Assembly: GCF_002843565.1 (NCBI RefSeq) | Contig: NZ_CP025257.1 | Span: forward strand, 1-64,000 | DNA from: Mesoplasma syrphidae | GTDB lineage: Bacteria; Bacillota_I; Bacilli_A; Mycoplasmatales; Mycoplasmataceae | Reading direction: 5' to 3' | Length of the DNA: 64,000 nucleotides | In this document: positions 45,894-56,148 of the stretch, piece after piece | How positions within the stretch are numbered: the stretch's first letter is position 1 | Layout: every line of letters starts with the position of its first letter | Notes under the pieces: generated by a model | The model's input: only the letters and a program-made list of their open reading frames with translations | Told to the model about the DNA's origin: nothing | The model's database searches: none | Made by a program: the position numbers and the translations under genes

Positions 45894-46343
45894 ATGGAAA
45901 AAAGAGATAGAAATTCATCAGATAGAAATTCTGATAGAGGATTTTCACGTGATCGTGAAGATAGAAGAGATAGAGACCGTAATGGCGATAGAGATCGCGG
46001 TGAAAGAAATTACGGCGGAGATCGTGGATCAGATAGAGATCGTGGATCAGATAGAGATCGCGGCGGAGACCGCGGTGGAAGAAACTTTGGTGGAGACCGT
46101 GGTGGCAGAACTTACGGTGGAGACCGTGGAAATAGAAGCTATGGTGGAGATCGCGGTGGAAATCGTGGCGGTGGAAGAAGCTTTGGCGGAGATCGTGGCG
46201 GAAACCGTGGTGGTAGAAGCTTTGGTGGAGACCGTGGCCCAAGAAGAGAAGGACCAAGTTTTGGAGAAAGAATTGAAGCTTTAGAAAAACAAGTAGCTCA
46301 ATTAGTGGCAATTATTAGTGGAGAAACAGAAGTTTCGGAATAA
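45894..46343 (+). CDS. Arg/Gly-rich low-complexity (RGG-box) protein with C-terminal coiled coil
   Basis: The 149-residue protein starts with an Arg/Asp-rich stretch (DRN, DRD, DRG units). Six copies of [NST][FY]GGDRG follow (NYGGDRG, NFGGDRG, TYGGDRG, SYGGDRG and SFGGDRG twice). A short predicted coiled coil RIEALEKQVAQLVAIISG ends the protein. Lys is almost absent after the start. RGG/RG-rich tracts bind RNA and can drive condensation in many proteins. The DNA of this gene is far more GC-rich than its surroundings because of Gly/Arg codons. ATG 45894 follows AAAGGA closely. No standard family was recognised; a detached helicase or SSB tail is an alternative. Confidence 0.75.
   Translation: MEKRDRNSSDRNSDRGFSRDREDRRDRDRNGDRDRGERNYGGDRGSDRDRGSDRDRGGDRGGRNFGGDRGGRTYGGDRGNRSYGGDRGGNRGGGRSFGGDRGGNRGGRSFGGDRGPRREGPSFGERIEALEKQVAQLVAIISGETEVSE
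45940..46245 (+). repeat. In-frame degenerate repeat tract encoding GGDRG units
   Basis: DNA units of the type GGTGGAGAYCGTGG recur about every 24-40 bp, and a 15-bp unit (GGATCAGATAGAGAT-CG) is duplicated near 46025-46055. The tract could change length by slippage or recombination. Confidence 0.7.
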
Positions 46344-51419: not shown

Positions 51420-51464
51420 AAAAAAAAAAAAATGGGGGACCAATTTTGGTCCCCCATTTTTTTT
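51420..51464. terminator. Strong GC-rich terminator
   Basis: A perfect 12-bp stem ATGGGGGACCAA/TTGGTCCCCCAT (51432-51443, 51446-51457) is bordered by A and T runs on both sides. It terminates the minus-strand HU-domain gene and insulates the dehydratase promoter. The GGGGG/CCCCC core is unusual for this AT-rich genome. Confidence 0.9.
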
Positions 51465-51479
51465 AATTAAAGTCAAATT

Positions 51480-52406
51480 TTAATCGTTGTATTCAATTAC
51501 AATAGTTTTTTCAACTTTTCTTTTAACTTTATACTTACCAGTTCAACTAGCATCAGTCATCTTTTTACGAAGTTGCTTTGATGTTTTGAATTTGACAGTA
51601 TTTTTTGCAGGCACAAAAATTGGTTCTCCAGTTAAAGGATTAACTTTTTCACAAGGATCAGTTCTTACAAAATTTAATCTTCCAAAGTTTGAAATAGTTA
51701 TTTCTTCACCATTTAGTAATTTTTTTTCAAAAATTTTAAAAGTTTTTTCAAATACTAAGTTTACTGTCTTTTTGGTTTCATTAGGAAAAGTATCATATAG
51801 CTGATTTAAAATATATTTTGTAGAAACTCGTTGATAATGCTTTTTGTTTACAACCTTATTTTCAAAAATTGTTTCATTTTTGTATTTAGTTATTTTTTCA
51901 GTGTCTTCAAATACTTCAGTTGCGTTTAATTTAAGCACATTGTTTTTTTCAATTTTAGAAGTCTTGTTTTCATTAAAGATATAATTAATTTCAATATTAG
52001 CACCTTGAGCTTTTTGATTTTCAAGCTCTTCTTTTGCTTCATCTTTTGTAAAAAAAATAATCTTAGTAAAGAAAGCAAATCAAGCAACAAGAGCTATAAT
52101 AAAAAATCAATTAATCAGCAGATCTCAAAAAACAGGTTCAATAAAAAGACCATTATAATTTAGATCAAACTGTGTAAATGACTTAAAACCAATTGGTCCC
52201 GTTAAATAGCTGATAGCCCCGCTTTGAGAATTAAACCAGTTTTCCCTTAGGACATTTGGAAACGCATCACCAAATAAATTTATTGACTCAGGATTTCCAA
52301 AATACAGGTGATTAATTATTTTAAAAACAATTGTCAAAGTTATTATTAAAAAAAATAATACAAAAATCATTCATCATCTATAATTCTTGCTAAAATTTAA
52401 CTTCAT
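51480..52406 (-). CDS. Membrane-anchored HU/IHF-domain protein
   Basis: The 308-residue protein joins two TM helices to a DNA-binding domain. Residues 12-31 and about 94-119 are hydrophobic, enclosing a 60-residue loop; the basic N terminus suggests N-in topology, which leaves the C-terminal part in the cytoplasm. After a charged linker (120-190), residues about 192-284 follow the HU fold: helical dimerisation part, LLNGEEITISNFGRLNFV, and the DNA-arm motif VNPLTGEPIFVPAKNTVKF with the conserved N-P-x-T-G and Pro. TGA Trp codons join the segments. The start follows AAGGAAG, and the gene begins one base after the stop of the large surface-protein gene, so both are one operon. No described family with this architecture is known to me. 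Confidence 0.85.
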
Positions 52407-52407
52407 A

Positions 52408-55400
52408 TTACTTTTCTTCCTTATCTTTTTTTTGTTTTCTTACAAATAAAGTGGCAGCAATTATTCCCAATATATTAATAGCTGCTATTCCTCATAGGAG
52501 CCCCAAACTAACCTTATTATTGCTATTTCTTATACCTTTTTCAATCTTCATATCTGATGTAAATGTGACTTTTTGAATTCCACGATAAACACTTTGATTT
52601 GTTGATCTAACAATCGCAGAATACTTATATGGCTCATTTTTTTCAGAACTTTGTTTAGTGATTTCGCTAATTGAAATTGAGTCAATATCAAGTTCAGGGT
52701 TATTTTGCTTTAAGACTTTTAAGTAAGCTTCAACACTTGGCTTACCACTTAATTCAAAATGAGTTTTCGTAATAACATCTTTTAAATTTTTTGAAACAAC
52801 GTAAACTAATTCGACGCTTCCTGTATATAAAGTGTTTTCATTTTTTGCAGAAACCAAAATCTTTTTGGTATCGCTATTAATATTAATTTCAAATGTTTCT
52901 CAGTCAAAAGTATATCCATAATTTTTCAAAAATTCTTGAACGTCTTCATCTGTTGGCTCTTGCTCTAATATTCCTAAGTCAAGACTATCTCCAATAATTA
53001 CCTTAGCAATTTCAGATTTTATAGTAAACGATATATTTACGTGACTTTTATATAATTCTGAGTCTTTATTAGCAATAATGATTGCAGAGTTGTCACTCAA
53101 CAGTTTTATAGTAATATCTTCAATCTCAAACTTTGGCATTTTTTTCTTAAGTCTTGATAACATATCCTTTTCAAATTCTTCAAGAGTGGTTTCTTGGTCA
53201 TATTGAGTCTTATCAAAGTTTCCCAGATCACGGTCAAATTCATTAATAACATTTCCTAGTTCTTCTCTTTCCAAATACAAATCGATTTGCTCAGCCGCAC
53301 CGCTAACACGAGCGCTTTCATTTTTAGCTCTGATAATGATTTTTCCTCGTTTTTCGATTGTTGATTTTTCTTGAATTTCAATTTCCAAATCTGAAGAAAC
53401 AATATTTGTTCAATTCTTAACTTCAGTTAAGTATTCTAAAACGTCATCCTCAGTTGTTTCATTAAAAAACTTAGCATCCTTAAATAAGTCTCTGTCACTT
53501 AAATCGTAAACTTTTTGAATTACAATTGTCTTTCGTCCAAATAGGTGATTTGGATTTGTGTCATTATTGGCTTCAATAGTTATTGATCCTTCAGATGCGG
53601 TACTTGCCTTGGTTAACGTAAAATTAAACTCGTCAAGAGTTACCATTTCTAAGCCAATAATACCATGAATTTTTTCTAAGAAATTTTCTTTAGTCGCAGC
53701 ATTAGAGCTTATAGTTTCATCCAATAATGCCAAGTTAAATTTAAGTCATTCAGTCTTAAATTCATAGTCATACTTAACAATTGTGGATTCAGGTTTGGCA
53801 ATAATCGAAATGCTTCCTTTTGAACCATATTTTGGCAATACTCTTACAATTTCAATATTTTCCTTAAACTCTTCAGATTTGATTTCCTGAGCATCGGGAT
53901 ATTGTTTTTTAATTGCATTGTTAATAACAAAAAGGATATCATCTTCGCTACTTTCGTTAGTGATTTTGTCAACTTCATATTCCAGCGTTGAAAGATCAAT
54001 TGCATTAAGCGCTGGTAAAATTACTTTTTGTGAACCAACTAATAAATTAGAATCTTCTATCGCCTTTATAGTAAATGATCCATTGGTTTTTTCCATTGGT
54101 TGCAGTAAAGATTCGACCTCATATTGGTCATTAATTGACCCTTGATAATTGGTTTCTTTTTGAATTTTTTCCGTTACATTTTTTTTAATCTCTGTTTCAC
54201 TTTTTTCCTTCAATATTTCAGCAATTTTGCCAAGGTTCAAATTTGCTAAATCATATTTTAATGGTGGAATAGTTAAGTTTTGTTTTCCCTGAACTAATTT
54301 AGAAGTATCAATTGCCTGAATAAGTATCTCACCAGAAACCCCATAATTAGCATTTTTCTCTCTAGTTATCTTAATGTCTTTTTCAATAGCTAAATTTTGT
54401 CCTACTTTATTTTTTAATACTGCCAATATTTCCTCGTCGCTTAAAGAATTAGTTAAACTTAAATCTTGGTCAATTCAATATTTCCTTTCAGATATGTCAA
54501 TTCGCGTTTGTACAATATTTGCAATCGTAATTTTTCCTACACTCGTAAAACCAGCATTTTCAGAATCAAAAAATTGTATATATAAGTCATATCCGTTCGT
54601 TTCTGATTCTTTAGGAATTGGAACAACTCATCCCTTATTCTTATCAAGTTTAACTCCCTGAATTTCTTCTTCAGTTCCAGATTTCAATAGTTGAACTTTT
54701 GTAATGTAAGAATTCGGACTAATTATTAAAGCTGCATTATTATTACCTACTTGGTATACATTTATACGCCCGTTTTCATCAATTGTATAATCAACGTCCC
54801 CAGGCTCATGCCCAAGATTTGTAAAACGCAATACTTCTTGAAATTTGTCACTCACAACACGTTGTACCATTCCACGTTCACGATTTTTTGTTCCAAATGA
54901 TTCGTCTGACTGAAACATCAAACCGTAATCGAACATTCCACTATAACCCTCTAAATTATGAACAACAACATCTGAGGCATTTTTTTGAACGTAAGTGTAT
55001 TTCGATTGAGTACTAAAGTTTGATTTTATTTCTGCTCAATGGTTAAAAACAGTATATTTAGTTGTATCGTTAATTCAAATAATATCCCTTAGCCATGAAT
55101 CTCTTCCATTTCCCTTAATTTCAATAACTGTTTTATCAAGATTGTTCAAGAAAAAGGTTTTGGGCTCAGCTGGATTATTTTCGCCGTTAAAAAGCGAAGA
55201 AGTTCCAACTCAAAATCCGTCTTTTTCACTAACAAATTTATATACATGATCAGAGTTAGGAATTGCACCTATTTTTTCGATATCATCTTTGTCGATAACT
55301 CGAAAAATATTACCTGAAATTGTATAAAAAATGTTTTTTGAAGTTGAGTTATTGTCAGTTGCCAATTTTGGTGACAAGCTTTTACCGTTAGCGGCTTTAT

Positions 55401-56148
55401 TAATGACACCTTCAGCAATTACTTCATTTTTGCTACCATTTTCGTCGCTTTTGTTTATTCTTCAAACATTTTCAACTGAATTCTCTGTTACGTAATAAAG
55501 TGATTTATTATTTATTGAATAAATTGCATCAGTAATTTTTTCTTGATTTGCTCTATACAAGATAACTTCTTGCCCACTATATTCAACTGGTTTTGGTTTA
55601 GCAGGAGTTAAAGCGCTACCCAAACCTGATAATACAAGACCAAGGCCACCAACAATTCCTCCCAAAAGTCCACCAAGACTTCCAATTAATCCGTCAGTAT
55701 TTGCATCATCATCTCAGTGAAATCTAGTGATACCATGTTCACTGAAATAATAAGTATTAAAATCGTTACCATAAAAAATAGTTTGGCCTTCCATATTAAT
55801 ACCTTTTTTCTTTTCTCGTAAACTGTTACCCGCTCATCCTAAGGTGTTAGTTCTAGAGTCGATTGCCTTTCTCATTGTTGATCCAGAAAAATCTGATTTC
55901 ATTTTAGATGAGACTAGAGCTTGGCGGGTCCCTAAAGTTCCTGATCAATACGTTGTTCCACTGTTTTCGTCAAATATTGATTGCTTAATTTTTGTACCAT
56001 AAGCAATGTTTGCTCTGTTGATTGCTTCATACTCAGTAATTTCATTGGTGTCATCTTTAACAACGTTTGAAATATTGTTGGATGCTAAAAATTCAGCTGG
56101 CAATTGACCGGCTGTTACTGCTGCTAATAAAGATAAATATAATTTCAT
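52408..56148 (-). CDS. Large surface-exposed, membrane-anchored repeat protein
   Basis: The single 1246-residue frame (TGA read as Trp) starts with a signal peptide MKLYLSLLAAVTAGQLPAEF that lacks a lipobox Cys. A Gly-rich hydrophobic segment lies at about 154-180, followed by a beta-rich region (about 190-540). From about 540 to 1195 come at least seven repeats of about 80-90 residues, each with a core such as GSFTIKAIEDSNLL, GSITIEANNDTN or GKIIIRAKNESARV. A C-terminal TM helix (near 1208-1230) and a basic tail RKQKKDKEEK end the protein. It should be exposed on the cell surface, perhaps as an adhesin. It is coupled to the HU-domain gene. Confidence 0.82.
52780..54400 (-). repeat. Protein-level tandem repeats in the surface protein
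   Basis: Seven diverged units of about 240-255 bp encode a strand motif G-x-[FI]-x-I-x-A followed by a small polar loop and a second strand. The units are too diverged at DNA level for simple recombination. Confidence 0.65.

Follow-up and report, generated by a model that had tools for sequence, protein, structure and literature searches.

A two-helix membrane anchor fused to an HU domain in Mesoplasma syrphidae, a candidate nucleoid tether encoded beside a surface protein

HU is the usual chromosome-packing protein, and in its canonical form it is a small soluble nucleoid protein of about 90 amino acids with no membrane segment. The stretch analysed here (the window) comprises the first 64,000 nucleotides of contig NZ_CP025257.1 of Mesoplasma syrphidae, and at positions 51480–52406 on the minus strand it contains a gene for a protein of 308 amino acids in which a complete HU domain is joined to two transmembrane (TM) helices. 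We call this architecture TM-HU. The HU domain is a member of the canonical family; the membrane anchor and the operon appear to be new. We lean, with a little more than even confidence, towards a membrane-tethered HU, specific to this lineage, as an anchor of the nucleoid, with the window copy in a complex with a large surface protein. The two-helix hairpin would fix TM-HU in the membrane, and a flexible cytoplasmic linker would let the HU domain reach the nucleoid. There, it may dimerise with itself or with the ordinary soluble HU that the same genome encodes at C1:600.5 kb, and such dimers would hold DNA non-specifically at the membrane, leaving part of the nucleoid membrane-held. Nucleoid-membrane attachment is an old question, going back to the idea of Jacob, Brenner and Cuzin. 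In Mesoplasma, a near-minimal laboratory model, a dedicated membrane-anchored HU would be a physical tether that can be tested directly, and through its surface-protein partner the nucleoid would be tied to the cell exterior.

Frame, anchor and HU fold

The gene is read in genetic code 4 from an ATG at 52406 down to 51480, with six in-frame TGA codons and one TGG for tryptophan. The preliminary description of this DNA had already reported these coordinates and a single continuous frame with TGA as tryptophan, leaving the strand unstated; the plus-strand reading of 51480–52406 was rejected for its many stops. When the same letters were shuffled 20,000 times, the frame stayed open in none of the shuffles. 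A break by sequencing error, which had been raised as a doubt, is excluded because the frame is intact and purifying selection acts on relatives of this architecture. A chance frame or a misassembly is just as close to impossible, given the six TGA codons and the recurrence of the architecture in 12 genomes; the homologs refute any reading of the gene as an artefact.

TM1 (52314–52370, residues 13–31, from Kyte-Doolittle hydropathy and the family alignment) and TM2 (52050–52127, residues 94–119, with hydropathy placing its start at about 94 or 101) are separated by an outer loop (52128–52313, residues 32–93). AlphaFold2 (AF2) models helices at residues 7–36 and 89–139 across the same region, so that the two helices first placed at 12–31 and 94–119 are borne out by both methods. 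The loop had been called short, and is in fact some 62–69 residues long. It carries conserved GPxG (G70-P71-x-G73) and WF motifs, and TM2 has an N-W motif. In a 20-row alignment of the anchor, which includes one homolog with another domain in place of HU, K29 and N32 (just past TM1), D95 and N99 are invariant, and G70, P71 and G73 nearly so. The four invariant residues lie near the outer ends of both helices, which makes a contact between the lysine and the aspartate possible there. We propose to define the family by an anchor with K-x2-N, GPxG and D-x3-N followed by a C-terminal HU domain, all of which the window protein has.

Every one of the 26 TM-HU homologs has 3–10 lysines or arginines before TM1 and 0–2 in each 15-residue edge of the loop (none at either edge in the window protein). 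By the positive-inside rule this pattern predicts that both termini lie inside and that the HU domain faces the cytoplasm, as originally proposed; an extracellular C-terminus is not predicted. It bears directly on a topology with HU on the outside, where it would capture extracellular DNA or glue cells together, like secreted biofilm HU. HU can be an extracellular glue in biofilms (PMC8063757), and the paired gene does encode a surface protein, but with two TM helices that place both ends on one side, and with positive charges N-terminal in every homolog rather than at the edges of the loop, this arrangement is very improbable.

Behind TM2 follows the charged cytoplasmic linker that was already recognised in the preliminary description (51834–52049, residues 120–191). 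It is modelled by AF2 with low confidence, and its length ranges from 45 to 206 residues across the family. The HU domain itself (51549–51833, residues 192–286) matches Pfam PF00216 over residues 197–283 with E=2.7e-17, covering profile positions 4–89 of 90, and the PDB matches found by phmmer are HU/IHF proteins. An AF2 model from the single sequence had a pLDDT of 43.7 and was set aside. With an alignment of the window protein, its relative from Mesoplasma grammopterae and 13 soluble HU proteins, pLDDT reached about 89–92 across most of the HU core, and the secondary structure (helices 196–206 and 212–231, strands with the arm at 236–275, helix 277–285) follows the full HU order. The best Foldseek match is the Spiroplasma melliferum HU 5l8z (E=7e-8, target TM score 0.75). 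The complete HU-like domain claimed at the outset is thus supported by family, sequence and fold searches alike. Two extra strands flank the core in the model, at 178–188 and at 292–302, the latter within a C-terminal extension (51483–51548, residues 287–308) that carries a conserved WTG.

The residues expected to contact DNA give a mixed picture. The arm-tip Asn-Pro (N62-P63, in VNPLTGEP, with NPLTGE at the tip), which includes the intercalating proline, is present in the window copy and is kept in 19 of 26 TM-HU proteins, the window copy included; seven paralogs, of the L062/L063 type, have lost the proline. The window copy retains K80, K83 and R86 (HU numbering), and C-terminal basic residues persist across much of the family. 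The HU domain of TM-HU proteins has a mean net charge of +5.4 against +3.9 for soluble HU, and the window copy reaches +8. At positions 55, 58 and 61, however, the window copy has T, C and V where soluble HU has R55, R58 and R61; these three positions are basic in most soluble HU proteins, and 55 and 58 are basic (K55, K58) in many TM-HU relatives. We infer that the window HU still binds DNA. An altered DNA affinity or a scaffold role is a live rival, since the basic residues at 55, 58 and 61 are gone here and the arm proline is gone in seven paralogs, losses that also count against the tether. On the scaffold reading, HU would have turned into a module for protein dimerisation, docking or scaffolding on the inner membrane face, where the anchor organises surface proteins and no DNA is clamped. 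The extra strand pair around the core would suit such a role, and so would two proteins in which the anchor carries another domain instead of HU (L050:6291-7094 and L051:5705-6508). The Asn-Pro tip of 19 of the 26 proteins, the retained C-terminal basic residues, an HU domain more basic on average than that of soluble HU and its low dN/dS argue the other way, and we regard the scaffold as possible but distinctly the less probable account.

With soluble HU (PF00216; 5l8z) the window protein thus shares fold and family over residues 192–286 as well as the arm-tip Asn-Pro; it differs in its length of 308 residues, its two-TM anchor, its linker and its WTG extension, and in lacking the basic arm residues. 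IHF alpha and beta belong to the same superfamily and give a partial score, but identity with IHF was rejected at 35.3 bits against NCBIfam equivalog cut-offs of 111–115 (NF001222, NF001401). Proteins of the HU-CCDC81 and HU-SPOR types in Bacteroidetes (PF18174, PF18175, PF14908) also have an HU-like domain within larger, partly membrane-linked proteins. That likeness is one of architecture: there is no SPOR match here, PF00216 scores far higher, and membership in HU-CCDC81 was rejected at 21.7 bits against a Pfam cut-off of 26.1. The Lys-rich-tailed HU proteins of actinobacteria (HupB, HupS) likewise combine HU with an extended Lys/Ala/Pro-rich segment. Long N-termini have been noted in some Mollicutes HU proteins, in a section of PMC5683647 that makes no mention of membrane segments, and the same paper discusses PAKKA tails of other HU proteins, which the AKKP repeats in the linkers of the mnmG-linked TM-HU copies described below resemble. 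Compared with all of these long-tailed or long-N-terminus proteins, the extension of TM-HU is set apart by its two TM helices. A description of the TM-HU family was not found in the open-licence literature searched, in agreement with the preliminary description, which knew of no family with this architecture.

Distribution, descent and chromosomal setting

The fusion of two TM helices with HU was found in 12 of 60 family genomes, in the genera g1 (that of the window), g3 and g7; one of the g7 genomes is Mesoplasma grammopterae. Genomes have one to five copies among the loci read. A profile of the anchor gave no credible match outside these three genera in 248 genomes of the order. Weak matches elsewhere were mostly stop-filled or short, and the other long HU frames, among the matches listed and read, were soluble. 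The preliminary description had suggested looking for homologs with the same fusion in other Spiroplasma and Entomoplasma; they exist in the 12 genomes of three genera, and none was found in the 37 genomes of g8–g10, of which g8 was identified as Spiroplasma by the identity of its HU with the S. melliferum protein, and g9 and g10 were so assigned by inference. A search for related loci with the full 308-residue protein returned no relative; when the HU part was used instead, soluble HU made up most of the matches, and Mesoplasma grammopterae was also recovered. Neither the anchor nor the extra domain of about 75 residues discussed below had a match in viral contigs, and plasmids gave ordinary HU only.

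In a tree of HU domains (95 columns, inner branches uncertain), a branch with a support of 97/82 separates 27 TM-HU domains, one of them from a decayed copy, from 24 soluble HU domains. Because the TM-HU domains group apart from soluble HU, the tree is consistent with one fusion event. Pairwise dN/dS is 0.08–0.33 for HU and mostly 0.08–0.40 for the anchor (0.49 in one near-identical pair), which by these ratios indicates that TM-HU is under purifying selection. A 184-residue HU in G055 (L035:5956-6510) groups with TM-HU and has a polar, coiled-coil-like N-terminus without a TM helix; it is apparently a TM-HU derivative that has lost its anchor. In a separate case, both g11 genomes (G051, L057:3983-5891; G052, L058:5127-6836) have two adjacent soluble-HU genes of 228–246 amino acids with unrelated N-terminal parts.

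Two main lineages of TM-HU can be told apart by position: one linked to genes which we take from their sequence to be mnmG, purA and purB, with one copy per genome, and the surface-protein-linked kind of the window. The former lies directly behind mnmG in g3, g7 and G054 and behind purA-purB in the window genome (G000) and G055; in G053 the presumed order is mnmG-nudix-purA-purB. Its distance from dnaA is 15–21 kb in g3 and g7 and 49–80 kb in g1 where measurable, and it has a long linker of up to about 206 residues, in g7 with the AKKP-type repeats. The window genome has such a second copy of 351 amino acids behind purA-purB (L031:5679-6734, at about 79.7–80.7 kb of G000:C1), with an acidic and Lys-rich linker and a PF00216 match of 2.6e-24; it also passes the HU-HIG cut-off. 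This paralog at 80 kb was missed in the preliminary description, as was the co-encoded surface protein, although the architecture was seen correctly. Only in its gene position does the mnmG/purB-linked paralog agree with the suggestion made there that the protein holds the origin region. HU binding is not sequence-specific; origin specificity therefore finds no support, and origin-specific tethering was rejected on this ground. The closeness of the mnmG-linked copies is a consequence of synteny with mnmG.

None of the 12 TM-HU genomes has ParB. It is missing in g1, g2, g3, g7 and g12, and present in g4, g5, g6 and g11 and in all 37 genomes of g8–g10, so that TM-HU is confined to ParB-less genera. 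ParA is absent in five of six TM-HU genomes searched, with a weaker match in G053. The correlation between TM-HU and ParB loss is suggestive only, because the losses are nested in related genera and g2 and g12 have neither protein. The SMC hinge was searched for in 10 genomes, eight of which have TM-HU, and all of them keep it. The retention of SMC and the nesting of the ParB losses are both points against the tether. JCVI-Syn3A also lacks ParABS, and chromosome segregation without ParABS has been modelled in minimal cells via SMC alone (PMC13142093).

The neighbouring surface protein

Upstream of the window copy, and on the same strand, lies a gene for a protein of 1246 amino acids (52408–56148), whose stop is 1 nt before the ATG of TM-HU. 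The protein has a signal-like N-terminus, Spiralin domains (PF05215), a C-terminal TM helix at 1218–1236 and a KKDKEEK tail. A Shine-Dalgarno-like AAGGAAG (52416–52422, minus strand) lies inside the last codons of this gene, a position that suggests translational coupling of the two proteins. Just 3' of TM-HU there is a strong intrinsic terminator (51425–51464, minus strand) with an 18-bp stem and a T run. Judged by these signals, the Shine-Dalgarno sequence and the terminator delimit a two-gene unit of surface protein and TM-HU.

A surface protein is found directly upstream in all readable intact loci of the window type (the window, G008, G009 and twice in G013). These partners have 1200–1375 amino acids, a signal-like N-terminus, Spiralin domains (PF05215 was detected in the window and G008 proteins), a C-terminal TM helix and a KKDEE-like tail. 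The gap to TM-HU is 1 nt in the window and 3 nt in G008, G009 and one G013 copy, and the genes overlap in the other G013 copy. In G010 (L049:8002-15001) the region upstream of TM-HU is masked (N), and only the final part of it shows a match to the surface protein. At the syntenic locus of G055, no more than residues 977–1193 are left of the surface protein, and the TM-HU frame is broken; in G012 about ten fragments of the surface protein remain, and TM-HU is cut short with its frame disrupted. The mnmG-linked TM-HU copies are intact in both genomes. These two apparently independent losses support a shared function of the pair, because both genes decayed together each time. The pairing is not exclusive, as the window genome also has a full-length surface-protein paralog of 1463 amino acids without a TM-HU neighbour (L160:3450-7841, about 331.4–335.8 kb of G000:C1), which is a further point against the tether. 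On the evidence of gene order and co-decay, the window copy is probably part of a membrane complex with the giant surface protein, and a cell-surface assembly would in this way be linked to the nucleoid.

The same neighbourhood could also be read as a transmembrane reporter or regulator: surface protein and anchor would sense the outside, and HU would locally alter how the surface-protein operon or genes close by are transcribed. The co-transcription signals, the tight coupling and the conserved outer loop would all suit such a system. HU, however, has no sequence specificity, no signalling domain is present, and a surface-protein partner is missing from the mnmG/purB-linked copies; we think such a system unlikely.

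Other domains on the anchor

Other proteins have the same two-TM anchor followed by an undescribed domain some 75 residues long (ERAKxDGSxxIxExRSELQKxANxxR...LRDMTKKELIxYM). In all, 49 distinct copies of this domain were aligned (loci L112–L118, L121, L122–L151 and L153), and it occurs in 19 of 248 genomes of the order, two of the matches being marginal. Behind a Lys/Ala/Pro-rich linker it forms the C-terminus of ribosomal proteins S6, L20, S16 and S5, of PTS transporters and of FtsH, the carriers being named by eye from their N-terminal sequence and not by family search. One soluble HU (PF00216) has it as well, and in several TM-HU proteins it sits either ahead of the HU domain or after it. 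A Pfam scan of four carriers found no model for it, and a PDB search gave only weak chance matches (designed helical repeats, caspase-3), so that no fold was assigned. In the window genome it is carried by S16 (G000:C1:591392-592237, equal to L122:3393-4238, minus strand). One may speculate, with considerable doubt, that the ParAB-less lineage of the Entomoplasma/Mesoplasma type uses modular membrane hairpins with interchangeable heads, either HU or the 75-residue domain; such a scheme would link nucleoid, ribosomes and membrane throughout these wall-less, near-minimal cells.

Elsewhere in the window, positions 45894–46343 on the plus strand encode a low-complexity protein of 149 amino acids with DRGG and RDRD repeats and a short coiled-coil-like end. 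It has no Pfam match, and because of the repeats, overlapping frames are open there as well.
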